Positions 17,815-23,849 of a stretch of DNA of 64,000 bases are shown here, in pieces. The stretch comes from an uncultured Bacteroidales bacterium (lineage in GTDB: Bacteria > Bacteroidota > Bacteroidia > Bacteroidales > Bacteroidaceae), in NCBI GenBank assembly GCA_902802815.1, contig CADCNQ010000001.1:1-64000 (forward strand), written 5' to 3'. The first letter of the stretch is position 1. Each line of letters opens with the position of its first letter. The translations under genes and the position numbers were made by a program. Under the pieces are notes generated by a model. The model ran no database searches. It saw only the letters and a program-made list of their open reading frames with translations, and was not told where the DNA came from.

Positions 17815-17894
17815 TCGTTTTTCTTTATCTTATGCAATATTTCGCCGAAAAAACTGCGCGTTCGCTGAAGAAAAAGTGCCGTTCGCTGAATATT

Positions 17895-17926
17895 TTTGCG
17901 CAGACAGCGGCAATGCCCTACCTTTG
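17895..17926 (+). promoter_or_regulatory. Complete Bacteroidota promoter of the beta-helix/LytSR operon
   Basis: A -33 TTTG at 17895-17898 and a -7 TACCTTTG at 17919-17926 are separated by 20 bases, the expected spacing. The ATG at 17967 follows after a leader of about 35 bases. This is the only promoter seen for the five genes to 23849. Confidence 0.8.
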
Positions 17927-17966: not shown

Positions 17967-19700
17967 ATGAACAACGTAAGACTTCTCGCAATGATAGCAT
18001 CACTGGCCGCGATGGCCGCCTGCACCTCGGACGACGACATACTGAACACCTACACAGACAGCTTCACGTCGTATGGCTCGTCGGCAGTCACGGGCAAACT
18101 GAGCACCTTTGATGTGGCCGTGGACAAAACCACCTCAGAACCCGCATCCGCCGCTGAAGAATACTTTCCCGAGGAGGAGGACGCACTGGAGAACAACGAG
18201 TTCACCACCGAGGTGAGCATCGACATGTCGGCCCCCGCAGACAAGACGGAGAACGGCGTGCAGATATCCGTCACCGACGGCCACGTCGTCGCCGACCACG
18301 GGACAACAAAGAAGGTGTGCTACGTGGTGAGCGGAACCACTACCAACGGTTCGCTGACCATCCTGGGCGAAAAGAAATATGCCGTGAAGCTCAACGGCGT
18401 GAACATCACCAACCCCGACTCCGCCGCGCTCAACCTCCTCAGCAGCAAACGCGCATTCGTCATCCTGGCCGACGGCACGGCAAACACCCTGACTGACGGC
18501 ACCTCCTCGCAGAACGACCACAAGGGAGCACTATACTGCAAGGGCAAACTGCTCTTCAACGGCAGCGGCGCACTGGCCGTGTACGGCAACTACAACAACG
18601 GCATACACTCGGCCGACTACATCGTGTTGCGCAACGGTAACAACATCTACGTGAAATCCACCGCCAACCACGGCGTGAAAGCCAACGACGGCGTGTTTAT
18701 CAACGGCGGCATACTCAACGTCGAGGTGTCCGCGGCTGCTGCCAAGGGTATCAACTGCGAGAGCGACATCATCGTGAACGGAGGACGCACCACGGTGCTG
18801 ACCACCGGCGGCGGGGCCTACGACACGGAAGAATATGAGGCGAAGGGCTCTGCCGGCATCAAGAGCGACGGCGCACTGACGGTAAACGGCGGAGAACTGT
18901 GGCTGAAGAGCACCGGCAGCGGCGGCAAGGGTATCAGCGTCGACACAGAGGCGTGCTTCAACGGAGGCAGCGTCTATATCGTCACCACCGGCGGACAGTA
19001 CCGCAGCAACAACGACACCGCATCGCCCAAGGGCGTCAAGGCCGACGGCAACATCACTGTCACAGGAGGCAGAATATGGGTGCGCACCGGCGGCACCAAC
19101 GGAGAGGGCATCGAGACGAAAGCCGAACTCAGCATCACGGGCGGCGAAGTGGCCTCGTATGCCTACGACGACGCAATCAATTCGAAGGGCAACACAACCG
19201 TCAGCGGCGGCAGCATCTATGCACACGGACGAAACAACGACGGCATGGACGCCAACGGCAACTGCTACATCAAGGGCGGCATCGTCTATGCCGTATGCTC
19301 CGGACAGCCGGAAGTGGCCATCGATGCCAACACCGAGGGCGGATACAGACTGTACGTCACGGGCGGCACACTTGTTGCCGTGGGAGGACTGGAGAGCGGT
19401 TCACAGCTCACACAGGCTTGCTATCAGGCCTCATCGTGGTCGCCGAACACATGGTACGGAATGACCGACGGAGCCACCGTCTTCTCATTCCAGACACCGT
19501 CGGGAGGCGGCAGCGGACTCGTCGTGTCATGCGCCTCGCAGCCCACACTGCAGTCGGGCATAAGCTACAGCGGCGGCACATCACTCTTCGGAGGAATAGG
19601 CATCACGGACGGAAGTTTCAGCGGCGGCACTGCAGTATCGCTTTCCAGCTACACAGGCGGCAACAACAATATGGGTCATAATCAAATGCACAGACCATGA
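17967..19700 (+). CDS. Lipoprotein with Cthe_2159-type beta-helix carbohydrate-binding domain (DUF4353)
   Basis: This 577-residue protein has a lipoprotein signal (Cys19 in MAACTSDDD), then an acidic linker to about residue 85. A long parallel beta-helix follows, made of repeated units such as VNGGELWLKSTGSGG, ITGGEVASYAYDDAINSKG and VSGGSIYAHGRNNDGMDANG. These Gly-Gly turns with regularly spaced Asp and Asn are the signature of the domain first seen in Clostridium thermocellum Cthe_2159, which binds cellulose and polygalacturonate with calcium. No catalytic residues are evident. It is probably surface-anchored and binds acidic polysaccharide or forms matrix. It is the first gene of a five-gene operon with a LytS/LytTR pair. 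Confidence 0.85.
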   Translation: MNNVRLLAMIASLAAMAACTSDDDILNTYTDSFTSYGSSAVTGKLSTFDVAVDKTTSEPASAAEEYFPEEEDALENNEFTTEVSIDMSAPADKTENGVQISVTDGHVVADHGTTKKVCYVVSGTTTNGSLTILGEKKYAVKLNGVNITNPDSAALNLLSSKRAFVILADGTANTLTDGTSSQNDHKGALYCKGKLLFNGSGALAVYGNYNNGIHSADYIVLRNGNNIYVKSTANHGVKANDGVFINGGILNVEVSAAAAKGINCESDIIVNGGRTTVLTTGGGAYDTEEYEAKGSAGIKSDGALTVNGGELWLKSTGSGGKGISVDTEACFNGGSVYIVTTGGQYRSNNDTASPKGVKADGNITVTGGRIWVRTGGTNGEGIETKAELSITGGEVASYAYDDAINSKGNTTVSGGSIYAHGRNNDGMDANGNCYIKGGIVYAVCSGQPEVAIDANTEGGYRLYVTGGTLVAVGGLESGSQLTQACYQASSWSPNTWYGMTDGATVFSFQTPSGGGSGLVVSCASQPTLQSGISYSGGTSLFGGIGITDGSFSGGTAVSLSSYTGGNNNMGHNQMHRP

Positions 19701-20089
19701 GAAGAACAATCATCATAACCATGTTCGGCATCCTCGCCACGGGAATGCGGGCCGCGCAGTACGACTATCTCGTATTCACACTCACCGACGGCACAAAGAC
19801 GGCCGTCACGGCATCAAACCTCACCATCACCTTCAGCGGAGACAATCTCATCGCGGGAAACGGCAGCGGGACGCTTGCCACCATGCCTCTCGCGCAGCTG
19901 ACGCAGATGGAGTTCTCCGACGACGACCCGACCGGCATCACCGCCATCAGCGCCGACATGCTGACCACGGACGGGACCGCAGCCGTCTACGACATAAACG
20001 GACGCCGCATGCCCAATGGGACGCAGCTGCCGGCAGGGATGTATATAGTGAAGACACAGAACAGAACCATTAAAGTGTATATAAGATGA
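19697..20089 (+). CDS. Small secreted protein with C-terminal sorting-like tail
   Basis: This 130-residue protein has a signal peptide (MRRTIIITMFGILATGMRA), a short beta-rich segment (YDYLVFTLTDGTKTAV), and a tail VYDINGRRMPNG...GMYIVKTQNRTIKVYIR. The tail resembles the C-terminal secretion/sorting domain of Bacteroidota type IX-secreted proteins and the Prevotella variant of it. Its start overlaps the stop of the upstream beta-helix gene by 4 bases (ATGA), and its stop overlaps the next gene in the same way, so the three are translationally coupled. In other proteins such a segment ends a larger adhesin; here it stands alone. The function is unknown. Confidence 0.75.
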   Translation: MRRTIIITMFGILATGMRAAQYDYLVFTLTDGTKTAVTASNLTITFSGDNLIAGNGSGTLATMPLAQLTQMEFSDDDPTGITAISADMLTTDGTAAVYDINGRRMPNGTQLPAGMYIVKTQNRTIKVYIR

Positions 20090-21954
20090 AGAAGACACTC
20101 ACGATAATAGCCGCCATGCTCGCCACGATGGCAGTTGCGGCACAGACACTCAACGTAAGGCAGGGCAGCGTCACATACCGCTTTCCCTCTGCACAGACGG
20201 GTGTGATGAACTTCGAGGGCGGCACAGTAACCGTCATGGGCAGGACATTCACTCCGGGCGACGTCACTGCAATGTGGACGGACGACACCGAGGTGACCGA
20301 CAATCTCGTGGCTGTGGCCTATGAGGGCACGTCGGCCACAGTCACCGTCGCTGGCAACGTGGCACAGTATGTCGAGGCCACAGTGAGCGGGGCGCACGTC
20401 ACCATAGCCCAGACAAACACCGATGCCGTTGACGGCAGCGAGATAACATACCAGCTCTCCGGCACCACAGCCGACGGCGAGTTCGCTCTCTCGGGAGCAT
20501 ACAAATGCACAGTGTCACTGGCCGGAGTCAACCTGACTAATCCCGCCGGTGCTGCCGTCAGCATCGACAACAAGAAGCGCATACAGCTCAGCGTGAAGAA
20601 AAACACCGAAAACACGCTGACCGACTGCACGGACGGCCAGCAGAAGGCATGTCTCTACAGCAAGGGACAGCTGCAGATGCAGGGCAACGGTACACTCAAC
20701 GTCTGCGGCAACACCGCACACGCCGTCAAGAGCGGAGACTATATCACCGTGAAAAATCTCACGCTCAACATCACCTCGGCCGTGGGCGACGGTATCAACT
20801 GCAACGGCTACTTCCAGATGAAGAGCGGCACGGTGACTGTCAGCGGTGTGGGAGACGACGGCATACAGTGCGACCTGGACGGCACAGCATCAACGGGCGA
20901 AACCGCCGACCATGAGGACGAGGACAGCGGTAATATATATATGGAAGACGGCACACTGACGGTGAGCACCACAGCTGCTGCCACCAAAGGCGTCAAGGCT
21001 GCCGGCGACATGATAATCAGCGGAGGCACCATAAATGTCACCACCACGGGCACCGGTGCCTACGACAGCGACGAAAGGGATGCCAAGGGATGCGCTGCAC
21101 TGAAGGCAGACGGCAACATGAGCATCAGCGGAGGCACCCTGACGCTGAAGTCCACCGGCAACGGAGGAAAATGTATCAAGAGCGACGGCACACTCACCGT
21201 CAGCGACAACGCAGACATCACAGCCACAACGACAGGCGGCACATACAGCTACAGCAGCAGCACTGCACAGCCCAAAGCCATCAAGAGCGACGGAGCCATG
21301 ACCGTCTCGGGCGGAACGGTGAAGGCCACGTCAAGCGGTCACGAAGCCGTTGAGACCAAGAGTACGCTGACGGTCAGCGGCGGCACGCTCTATGCGTTCA
21401 GTTCATCGGACGATGCCATCAACTCGGCCAGCCACATGTATCTGAAGGGCGGCGCTGTGACCGGTGTCAGCAACGGCAACGACGGCATCGACAGCAACGG
21501 CAATATGTATATCTCCGGCGGCACGGTCATCGCCTGCGGAGCCGGTGAACCGGAATGCGGTCTCGACGCTGCCGAGCGCTGCTATCTCTACATCACCGGC
21601 GGCACGGTGCTCGCTATCGGCGGCGGCAACAACAGCGTCACGGCGACCACAGGCTCACAGTGTGTGCTCAGCACCTCGGGCAGCACCACAGCAGGCACGG
21701 CAGTCAGCATGAAGAGCGGTGGCACGACACTTGCATCGTTCACCATACCCACGGGCTACTCTCCGACAAGCGGAGGCGGAGGAGGGGGCTTCGGTCCCGG
21801 CGGAGGAGGATTCCGTCCCGGTGGCGGTGGCGGCAGCAGCAGTTTCAAATACCTGCTGAGCCACTCTGCACTCGTGTCCGGCACCAGCTACACCGTGACC
21901 ATCGGTTCCACGTCCACCTCGTGCAAAGCTGCAACCAGCTATACGGGAAGATAA
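20086..21954 (+). CDS. Secreted beta-helix carbohydrate-binding protein (DUF4353), second copy
   Basis: This 622-residue protein has a signal peptide (1-19, AVAAQ) rather than a lipobox. The N-terminal 100 residues are beta-rich. Residues 110-560 repeat the beta-helix units of the upstream paralogue (for example ISGGTLTLKSTGNGGKCIKSDG and VSGGTLYAFSSSDDAINSAS). Near the C-terminus a glycine-rich linker of about 25 residues (580-605, with FGPGGGGFRPGGG) precedes a short terminal domain. The linker suggests flexible attachment or self-assembly. It probably cooperates with the lipoprotein paralogue, one anchored and one released. It is followed after 36 bases by a LytS-type kinase. Ligand and calcium dependence are inferred from the family. 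Confidence 0.85.
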   Translation: MKKTLTIIAAMLATMAVAAQTLNVRQGSVTYRFPSAQTGVMNFEGGTVTVMGRTFTPGDVTAMWTDDTEVTDNLVAVAYEGTSATVTVAGNVAQYVEATVSGAHVTIAQTNTDAVDGSEITYQLSGTTADGEFALSGAYKCTVSLAGVNLTNPAGAAVSIDNKKRIQLSVKKNTENTLTDCTDGQQKACLYSKGQLQMQGNGTLNVCGNTAHAVKSGDYITVKNLTLNITSAVGDGINCNGYFQMKSGTVTVSGVGDDGIQCDLDGTASTGETADHEDEDSGNIYMEDGTLTVSTTAAATKGVKAAGDMIISGGTINVTTTGTGAYDSDERDAKGCAALKADGNMSISGGTLTLKSTGNGGKCIKSDGTLTVSDNADITATTTGGTYSYSSSTAQPKAIKSDGAMTVSGGTVKATSSGHEAVETKSTLTVSGGTLYAFSSSDDAINSASHMYLKGGAVTGVSNGNDGIDSNGNMYISGGTVIACGAGEPECGLDAAERCYLYITGGTVLAIGGGNNSVTATTGSQCVLSTSGSTTAGTAVSMKSGGTTLASFTIPTGYSPTSGGGGGGFGPGGGGFRPGGGGGSSSFKYLLSHSALVSGTSYTVTIGSTSTSCKAATSYTGR

Positions 21955-21990
21955 CAGTTATTCGGCCACAGACAATAAAAACGGCAGGAT

Positions 21991-23130
21991 ATGCGTTTCA
22001 TATATTGGATGAAACAGTCGTCACGACAGGAAAACGTCACTTACCTGGCGATGTGGGTCATGCTGTTTGTGACCCCCGTCCTGAGTATGTATGTCAACAC
22101 TTCCGCCGGGCACGACAGTTTCGAATGGAATGAACTGTGGCATATATGGCAGAAGTTCGCCGTCTTTCTCGCTCTCTTTCTCGTTCACAATTTCCTGCTA
22201 GCCCCTCTCCTGATTCAAGGACAGAAGAGATTGCAGTATTTCACGCTGACGCTCTCCATTGTGACGTGTTTCATCATCTATCAGTGCAACACACGGCCCG
22301 ATTTCCCGGACAGGAAACATCCTCCTATGGAACAGGGGATGCATCACCACAGTTTCCCCGACGCACCCTCCGCAGAACGTCCCGGAAACGTTCCTCCGCA
22401 CAAGCCGGAACGTGAACACGTGGGACCGCCGCGCTTCATCGGCGAGCATGACATCGTGGCGTCTGTCATCCTCATCCTGATGTTCGGTATGAATCTCGGT
22501 GTGAAGGGCTACTTCAAGAGCCGCAACGACCGCAGGAAAATGCAGCAACTGGAGAAGCAGAATCTGGAGCAGCAACTGGAATATCTGAAATACCAGATCA
22601 ATCCGCACTTCTTCATGAACACGCTGAACAATATCCATGCTCTGGTGGACATTGAGCCCGCAAAAGCGCAGCAGACCATCCTGGAACTCTCGAAGATGAT
22701 GCGGTTTATCCTCTACGAAGGCGACAAGAACGGAGTGCCCCTCTCACGGGAGATAGAATTCATCGGGACATACGTCAGGCTGATGAGTCTGAGATACACC
22801 GACAAGGTGACTATCCGTATGGAACTGCCGTCCGGAGTGCCCGAGAAGACCATTCCGCCGCTTATTCTCATTCCGTTTGTCGAGAACGCTTTCAAGCACG
22901 GCATCAGTTATCAGAAGCCCTCATTCATCGACATAAAGGTGACGGTCGGACAACAGCTGACATTCACCTGCCGCAACTCGAAAGCCGAAACGCCCAATCA
23001 GGAAAAGGGCGGCGTGGGACTCAACAATGTCAGACGCAGGCTACGTCTCCTCTACGGCGAGAACTTCACACTTAATATAAAGGATAATCCCGAAGACTAT
23101 CACGTCGAACTAATCATTCCGCTCTCATGA
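21991..23130 (+). CDS. LytS/YehU-type sensor histidine kinase with His-rich loop
   Basis: This 379-residue kinase has four predicted membrane helices (about 16-35, 52-74, 81-99 and 152-173), a coiled coil (176-200), and a His_kinase domain with the phospho-acceptor His206 in QINPHFFMNTLN. A HATPase domain follows, with the N-box VENAFKHG and GGVGLNNVRRRL. Between helices 3 and 4 lies a loop of about 50 residues unusually rich in His, Pro and Glu (RKHPPMEQGMHHH and more), probably in the periplasm and able to bind metal. It overlaps the response regulator gene by 4 bases. The likely output is control of its own operon of polysaccharide-binding proteins. The signal is unknown; a metal or cell-envelope ligand is possible. 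Confidence 0.92.
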   Translation: MRFIYWMKQSSRQENVTYLAMWVMLFVTPVLSMYVNTSAGHDSFEWNELWHIWQKFAVFLALFLVHNFLLAPLLIQGQKRLQYFTLTLSIVTCFIIYQCNTRPDFPDRKHPPMEQGMHHHSFPDAPSAERPGNVPPHKPEREHVGPPRFIGEHDIVASVILILMFGMNLGVKGYFKSRNDRRKMQQLEKQNLEQQLEYLKYQINPHFFMNTLNNIHALVDIEPAKAQQTILELSKMMRFILYEGDKNGVPLSREIEFIGTYVRLMSLRYTDKVTIRMELPSGVPEKTIPPLILIPFVENAFKHGISYQKPSFIDIKVTVGQQLTFTCRNSKAETPNQEKGGVGLNNVRRRLRLLYGENFTLNIKDNPEDYHVELIIPLS

Positions 23131-23849
23131 TAAGATGCATGGCCATAGACGACGAACCCCTGGCTCTCCAGCAGATAGCGTCCTACATCAGCAAGGTGCC
23201 CTTTCTCGAACTGACCGCCAGGTGTCAGAGTGCCGTAGAGGCCCGTCAGTTTTTGGAGAGGGAAAGCGTTGACGCCGTCTTCTGTGACATCAACATGCCC
23301 GACCTCAACGGTATGGACTTCATTAAATCGCTCACGATGCCGCCACTCGTCGTATTCACCACAGCCTATGCGGAATATGCCGTAGAGGGCTTCAAGGTGA
23401 ATGCCGTAGATTACCTGCTCAAGCCCTTCGGTCTGCAGGATTTCCAGAGAGCTGCCCAGCGACTGAAGGAACGTATGGAACCCGCGCGCAGCAACGGGAC
23501 AGCTGCCTCAGCAGCTGATTCCGACATCATTTTCCTCAAAACCGAATACCGCATCGTGAAGGTGACTGTTGCCGACATACGCTACGTTGAGGCTATGAGC
23601 GAATACCTCAAAGTCTATCTGCGCAACGAGGCGAGACCCATCGTCACGCTTTTGTCGATGAAGAAGATGGAGGAGCGTCTGCCCGCCAACTTCATGCGCA
23701 TCCATCGCTCATATATCATCAATCTCAACGACATTCAGGAGGTGAACAAGAACCGCATCATAATGGATGCCGACACTTATCTGCCCATCGGTGACATGTA
23801 TCGGGATGCCTTCCAGAGCTACCTCGACACGAAGTTCCTCGGGAAGTAG
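23127..23849 (+). CDS. LytTR-family response regulator
   Basis: The 240 residues comprise a receiver domain (1-120) with phospho-acceptor Asp54 (VFCDINMPDLNG) and conserved Lys near 103 (YLLKPF), and a LytTR DNA-binding domain (about 133-238) with FMRIHRSYIINL. LytTR proteins bind direct repeats upstream of genes for surface polysaccharide, adhesion or export. The start codon overlaps the stop of the kinase gene (ATGA), so the pair is made together. The stop is 3 bases from the convergent hydrolase gene, with no terminator visible between. Targets probably include the promoter at 17895-17926. Confidence 0.94.
   Translation: MIRCMAIDDEPLALQQIASYISKVPFLELTARCQSAVEARQFLERESVDAVFCDINMPDLNGMDFIKSLTMPPLVVFTTAYAEYAVEGFKVNAVDYLLKPFGLQDFQRAAQRLKERMEPARSNGTAASAADSDIIFLKTEYRIVKVTVADIRYVEAMSEYLKVYLRNEARPIVTLLSMKKMEERLPANFMRIHRSYIINLNDIQEVNKNRIIMDADTYLPIGDMYRDAFQSYLDTKFLGK

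Follow-up and report, generated by a model that had tools for sequence, protein, structure and literature searches.

A LytTR-type sensor-regulator module linked to Cthe_2159-type beta-helix genes in a rumen-associated Prevotella-type bacterium

We analysed a 64,000-nucleotide stretch (hereafter the window) of contig CADCNQ010000001.1 from an uncultured Bacteroidales organism, a gut (mostly rumen) Prevotella-type bacterium, and describe a module of five open reading frames (ORFs), all on the forward strand, spanning window positions 17967 to 23849. Judging from sequence comparisons, a membrane histidine kinase (HK) and a LytTR response regulator (RR) probably switch on an operon of surface beta-helix (BH) proteins by way of a 9-N12-9 DNA box. 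The evidence comes from the conserved gene unit, from the box, from its presence at BH operons that lie apart from the kinase, and from a natural fusion of sensor and LytTR domain.

The first gene (17967 to 19700, 577 aa) encodes BH1, a Cthe_2159 beta-helix lipoprotein. It is followed by SM (19697 to 20089, 130 aa), a small secreted beta-domain protein with a tail resembling type A signals of the type IX secretion system (T9SS); by BH2 (20086 to 21954, 622 aa), a secreted Cthe_2159 beta-helix with a glycine-rich stretch; by HK (21991 to 23130, 379 aa), which has a Pro/His-rich loop between hydrophobic segments; and by RR (23127 to 23849, 240 aa). An initial annotation made from the letters alone had proposed two large Cthe_2159-type proteins, in agreement with the matches of both to Pfam PF14262 (E-values of 1.2e-53 and 2.9e-52; 182.5 and 178 bits, with a curated cut-off of 25.8). 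It had also called one of them a lipoprotein and the other secreted with a Gly-rich part, which fits the lipobox-like N-terminus of BH1 (MAAC-TSDDD) and the signal-peptide-like start and Gly-rich stretch (near residues 562-585) of BH2. The fifth protein is, as proposed, a LytTR regulator (Response_reg PF00072 and LytTR PF04397) and lies beside the kinase. The latter had been named LytS: its PF06580 domain (E 2.5e-24) supports the family, while the 5TMR-LYT sensor domain, a feature of LytS proper, was absent from its Pfam matches at E-values up to 1. Overlaps of four bases, claimed for the whole series, are found at three of the four junctions (ATGA at BH1/SM, SM/BH2 and HK/RR), whereas BH2 and HK are separated by a 36-nt gap. 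The five-gene observation is thus partly confirmed, being real in large part and requiring small corrections.

A direct repeat of the form 9-N12-9 without mismatches (TTCGCTGAA) stands upstream of BH1 and abuts a Bacteroidota-type promoter. The two LytTR-type half-sites, both CGTTCGCTGAA on the forward strand, are identical over 11 nt and start 21 nt apart; the first occupies 17859 to 17869 (9-mer core 17861-17869) and the second, which is kept upstream of the module in relatives, 17880 to 17890 (core 17882-17890). The promoter follows on the same strand (17895 to 17926), with the -33 element TTTG at 17895-17898 and the -7 element TACCTTTG at 17919-17926, giving the form TTTG-N20-TACCTTTG, which we take to be the Bacteroidota-type consensus. 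This element makes the single promoter suggested for the genes plausible, although a simple sigma-70 scan found none, and a general sigma-70 promoter above the operon was rejected on that scan. According to the available text of two studies, LytTR sites consist of two 9-11 nt repeats with an 11-13 nt spacer (PMC4847170) and, in autoregulated LytTR operons, often lie just upstream of the promoter (PMC6193735). The window box agrees with this description in repeat length, spacer and position. The RR would bind the two TTCGYTGAA copies, which lie two helical turns apart immediately ahead of the promoter, and HK and RR would activate the BH operon, their own genes included. Within its own genome the box stands alone: no other pair lies within 3 of 22 mismatches of the window repeat. 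Against the box pattern the module scores 0 mismatches, and none of the 38 other genes of the window does better than 5. The RR finds no second match in that genome at E-values up to 1e-10.

The same spacing dominates in related loci. In 921,404 bases read on both strands (60 regions plus part of the window), pairs of TTCGYTGAA-like 9-mers numbered 33 at spacing 21, whereas the other spacings between 12 and 33 had 1-7 pairs apiece. We then used 80 named loci gathered with an HK profile, all ORFs being considered, and counted boxes with at most three mismatches before the unit. They precede 25 of the 27 loci whose HK identity reaches 50% or more, 7 of 15 at 43-49%, 4 of 13 at 38-42% and 2 of 25 at lower identity; each of eight control gaps (8-11 and 13-16) gave 0-1 boxes. 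The offset of the promoter also recurs. Among 74 boxes (71 distinct) with at most three mismatches near BH, SM or HK starts, the element TAnnTTTG begins 37 nt (42 of the distinct boxes) or 38 nt (15) beyond the first base of half-site 2, the remainder having it elsewhere (1) or not detectably (13). A separate feature is a terminator-like palindrome that in many operons extends across both half-site 2 and the -33 box; its arms differ yet remain complementary, and T runs often follow. It is weak in the window (17877-17912) and strongest in loci L278, L227, L207, L214 and L074. Its inverted-repeat score reaches at least 8 in 21 of the 71 boxes, compared with 1.7 after swapping right arms; the per-position covariation test was weak and the per-locus test clearer. 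The palindrome may insulate the promoter from read-through.

When 301 family genomes were scanned with a longer pattern allowing two mismatches, 33 sites with 0 or 1 mismatch were obtained. Twenty-six of them come from genomes that encode either a close HK (39 genomes, E up to 5e-70) or the fusion regulator described below (three genomes), and 21 of these 26 precede BH, SM or HK genes. The other seven sites (G003, G027, G036, G041, G141, G242, G272) are intragenic, stand ahead of unrelated genes or, in G141, fall at the end of a contig. Control of unrelated genes by the regulator would speak against a dedicated system; the box mainly precedes BH, SM or HK genes. In loci L069 and L208, HK-RR is convergent with SM-BH and each has its own box. 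Remote boxes also occur about 90-95 nt before a BH lipoprotein gene in G233 and G095, before SM-BH in G122 and before BH in G034. Because separated BH operons carry boxes of their own, the regulator would control the BH genes beyond mere co-transmission, and the pattern argues for a tie between them that is independent of gene order.

Five of the 301 genomes (G147, G297, G104, G217 and G255, genus g24) encode a regulator lacking both kinase and receiver, in which the N-terminal part resembles the HK sensor region and the C-terminal part the LytTR half of RR. A profile of the sensor matched four of the five fusions (E 3e-17 to 3e-20) and, among 2,027 control proteins, no protein other than HKs; the G255 fusion was matched by the full HK profile only (E 4e-8). 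The fusion gene is divergent from a BH gene in all five genomes, with a box (at most three mismatches) between the two in four of them and none in G217. The fusion, a natural direct link from sensor to DNA-binding domain, points to sensor, LytTR domain, box and BH as the working unit.

A survey of co-occurrence, proposed together with the initial annotation, showed that SM, BH, HK and RR recur in relatives while the flanks differ. The core order is SM-BH-HK-RR, with a 4-nt SM/BH overlap in many loci, and several loci have BH-HK-RR with no SM detected. The extra lipoprotein BH gene comes first in the window and in L068; a second BH gene stands behind the first in L077 and L098, and extra lipoprotein BH genes may precede the module, follow it or lie remotely with their own box. 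BH1 is accessory and the core comprises four genes, so the five-gene unit originally described holds for the window and a few relatives, the general form being SM-BH-HK-RR or BH-HK-RR. These gene maps derive from a mechanical ORF picker that missed the HK in six of the 80 loci (L212, L217, L249, L253, L261, L274), while the all-ORF approach modelled 80 of 80. In a tree of 132 HKs (those below 250 bits and duplicates dropped; quick method, midpoint root), the window kinase belongs to a 45-member group with support of 92, which contains a 40-member subgroup with support of 97. Within the 45, 31 have SM and BH nearby, 12 have BH and 2 have neither. The relatives are largely metagenome-assembled genomes (MAGs) of rumen Prevotellaceae, together with Xylanibacter ruminicola D31d, Prevotella sp. 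tc2-28 and Segatella paludivivens DSM 17968, the last of which has the box and no BH near the HK.

Unrelated genes that merely happen to be side by side would explain why the distribution is patchy, a close HK being found in just 8 of 22 sampled genus members, own genome included. This is an extremely improbable account, refuted by the BH gene that accompanies 43 of the 45 grouped kinases, by the conserved box and by the BH gene beside all five fusions. It is also contradicted by gene sharing among 26 loci hand-picked from the 80 for HK identity of at least 43% and long flanks: 231 of their 325 pairs have BH in common, and 49 have any flanking gene in common (three flanking genes per side). 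Random neighbourhood was rejected on box conservation, locus-pair sharing and the HK tree group. Gene conservation and the box support the view of a self-contained unit that is very probably signal-controlled. A separate HK-RR branch is a conserved LytTR system of its own: its HK overlaps the RR, often by 23 nt, no BH adjoins the HK, and neighbours of about 485, 483, 157 and 283 aa recur (L100, L106, L109, L111-L115 and L118-L122 of genus g20, L262 and L273).

The likely sensor of the kinase is its Pro-rich extracytoplasmic loop. In the window it contains 12% His and 24% Pro, compared with 2.2% and 3.8% in ORFs of the loci, and each of the 22 aligned members has a loop rich in Pro (11-28%). 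We considered whether PPM(E/D) might be a sensor motif conserved throughout the HK family and dropped the idea after counting [RHK]PP[MI] by group, which gave 11 of 35 kinases with SM and BH, 3 of 17 with BH only, none of 16 linked to VTC and none of 64 others.

Several observations weigh against the proposed regulation of a surface operon. The box consensus was derived from part of the loci on which it was tested, and the 80 named loci partly overlap them (L210 and L247 are on the same contigs as in the 60-region set, so at least two overlap). The box is weak or missing in some loci, with 4 mismatches in L218, 10 in L265 (contig end) and none within 3 in L088. Five of the 26 sites noted above have other targets, namely an AraC gene (G060), a DUF4890 gene (G233) or no clear target (G150 twice and the second site of G285); boxes before DUF4890 in G281 and before no clear gene, G281 C5 included, add to these. 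The T9SS-like tail of SM scores 17.3 bits with TIGR04183, below the curated cut-off of 23, so the sorting-like tail first described stands as a resemblance; the likeness between SM and the BH2 N-terminus is modest, signal peptide counted in; and a VTC-linked BH operon elsewhere in the own genome (contig C24) carries no box. Finally, the loop is His-rich in the window's clade but shows little or no such enrichment in the fusions and the Bacteroides-type kinases.

The loop bears directly on another explanation, in which the kinase responds to metal or to a damaged envelope and the beta-helices serve as a surface shield. The loop of the window kinase is rich in His, Met and Pro, and the boxes before genes for weakly LTXXQ-like DUF4890 proteins in G233 and G281 would suit such a response; yet these targets are limited to two genomes and the loop His is not kept across the family, which makes this explanation quite unlikely. 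Metal sensing by the loop His was discarded as a general property of the HK family. The DUF4890-matching proteins are small and secreted, encoded at L189 6317-6745 and L186 6882-7442 (G281 and G233), and their LTXXQ/Spy-like relation is above cut-off in L189 only. Two further extra boxes were recorded, one before the AraC-type regulator at L086 4484-5410 (G060) and one downstream of RR at about L105 6774 (G285), with no ORF of at least 70 aa soon after.

The AlphaFold2 (AF2) model of BH2 is a long beta-helix (pLDDT 86.1, pTM 0.86) with low pLDDT in the Gly-rich stretch. Its best Foldseek matches are 4peu/4phb (E 5e-7; 5.2e-7 for 4peu), and Cthe_2159 itself is the sole significant PDB match by fold and by sequence. 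PF14262 is present in 194 of 301 sampled family genomes, and the own genome has two further Cthe_2159 loci (contigs C10 and C24). A tblastn search of BH2 against 50,697 phage records gave no match, by which a phage origin of the module was ruled out. Many BH proteins from many loci share a Gly-rich tail ending in an aromatic or basic residue (GGGRW, GGGWH, GPRW), a possible C-terminal signal. The residues after the BH1 cysteine (C-TSDDD), judged by eye, resemble a surface lipoprotein export signal, given as SDDDD for B. fragilis in the accessible part of one report (PMC5080379); BH1 is predicted to lie outside the cell. For SM (AF2 pLDDT 77; alignment of 16 members), a structure search against PDB returned no significant match. 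SM and the BH2 N-terminus have a short domain in common (hhalign probability 94%, signal peptide included), a beta domain that might dock SM and BH2 together. SM would be exported by its T9SS-like tail, and since the own genome encodes SprA, presumably the T9SS channel protein, such export is possible.

The module is most likely a sensor-controlled coat of beta-helices that bind acidic polymers, whether acid sugars from plants or a polymer that the cell itself makes. Matrix building or attachment to acidic glycans, as proposed at first, would follow by analogy with the Cthe_2159 family, and the interpretation as a signal-controlled surface system is partly supported. Plant acid sugars are suggested by the xylan surroundings of the window together with the report that Cthe_2159 binds both cellulose and polygalacturonic acid (PMC6712302). 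The beta-helices would then capture glucuronoxylan or pectin for neighbouring enzymes. Positions 5486-63439 form a glucuronoxylan gene region (GH10-esterase, GH43s, SASA esterase, MFS, GH67, GH115 and GH88, with an RND efflux set between them), and the many relatives that are rumen MAGs would fit. Against this, the flanks vary, as the few locus pairs sharing a flanking gene attest, and the box occurs at 0 of the 38 other window genes tested; capture for neighbouring enzymes is thus possible, not probable.

The link to VTC genes raises the cell's own polymer as the ligand. Bacterial VTC would make polyphosphate. A VTC gene lies within 10 kb in 16 of the 132 HK loci, 11 of which have BH as well; these loci belong to several branches, Prolixibacteraceae among them, and the link may be ancestral. 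The order is VTC-DUF4956-DUF2490-BH-HK-RR in L091 and L101 and VTC-DUF4956-DUF2490-HK-RR in L096, L097 and L099; Pfam confirmed the assignments on samples, and NCBIfam named none of six VTC-cluster proteins. The beta-helices would hold a polyanion that the cell makes and exports with the VTC polymerase, a DUF4956 protein of the inner membrane and a DUF2490 barrel of the outer one, with the kinase sensing the polymer. This is consistent with boxes before the VTC operons of L096, L099 and L221 and before BH-VTC in L199, and with VTC-DUF4956-DUF2490-BH-SM on contig C24 of the own genome. As noted, however, that operon has no box, and 0 of the 45 HKs of the window's group are labelled with VTC within 10 kb; no VTC or DUF4956 gene was found in window 10001-32000. 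A role in holding the cell's own polymer can therefore be entertained only tentatively. The more specific idea of an undescribed trans-envelope polyanion system in Bacteroidota, whose regulatory and surface arm is found detached as the window module and whose HK or fusion reads the polymer via a disordered Pro-rich periplasmic loop, is speculative and rather unlikely.

Comparison with known systems shows that the individual parts are familiar. Both large proteins belong to the Cthe_2159 family (PF14262; 4PEU/4PHB), BH2 also by predicted fold, and differ from it in their greater length, N-terminal domain or lipoprotein anchor, Gly-rich tails and dedicated regulator. As far as the accessible text goes, YpdA/YpdB-type LytTR two-component systems (PMC4847170) have the same PF06580 kinase, LytTR regulator and repeat length and spacing, while the module has another sensor, surface beta-helix operon targets and the box TTCGYTGAA. 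LytTR regulatory systems pair a LytTR protein with a separate membrane inhibitor and have demonstrated autoregulation in the available portion of PMC6193735, whereas the module has an HK and receiver-LytTR protein (in one genus a sensor-LytTR fusion) and its autoregulation is inferred. In the part of PMC7112168 at hand, cotH, poly-phosphate polymerase and DUF4956 are accessory genes of Gram-positive pel loci; VTC-type polyphosphate polymerase and DUF4956 also flank distant HK relatives, but those accounts of pel operons contain no Cthe_2159 or LytTR, and no Pel search was made at the HK loci. The binding region of the Lactobacillus reuteri SRRP, a beta-solenoid adhesin reported to bind pectic acid, has a related cluster distantly linked to Cthe_2159; it is a Gram-positive adhesin with no LytTR pair described in the available sections (PMC9210967). 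A literature search restricted to open-licence PMC full texts found no module of this composition, and while the parts and LytTR two-component control are known, the wired-together system seems undescribed.

Cthe_2159 proteins are widespread and their biology is obscure; the regulator, the DNA box and the natural fusion provide a handle on it. Reporter fusions to the box could be used for finding the signal, and box searches for listing co-regulated genes. The VTC-DUF4956-DUF2490 link ties orphan envelope families to a testable function. If the module were an arm of a polyanion system, VTC would act in the cytoplasm, DUF4956 in the inner membrane and DUF2490 as the outer-membrane barrel, Cthe_2159 helices would hold the polymer outside, and the sensor would set the amount of helix displayed.

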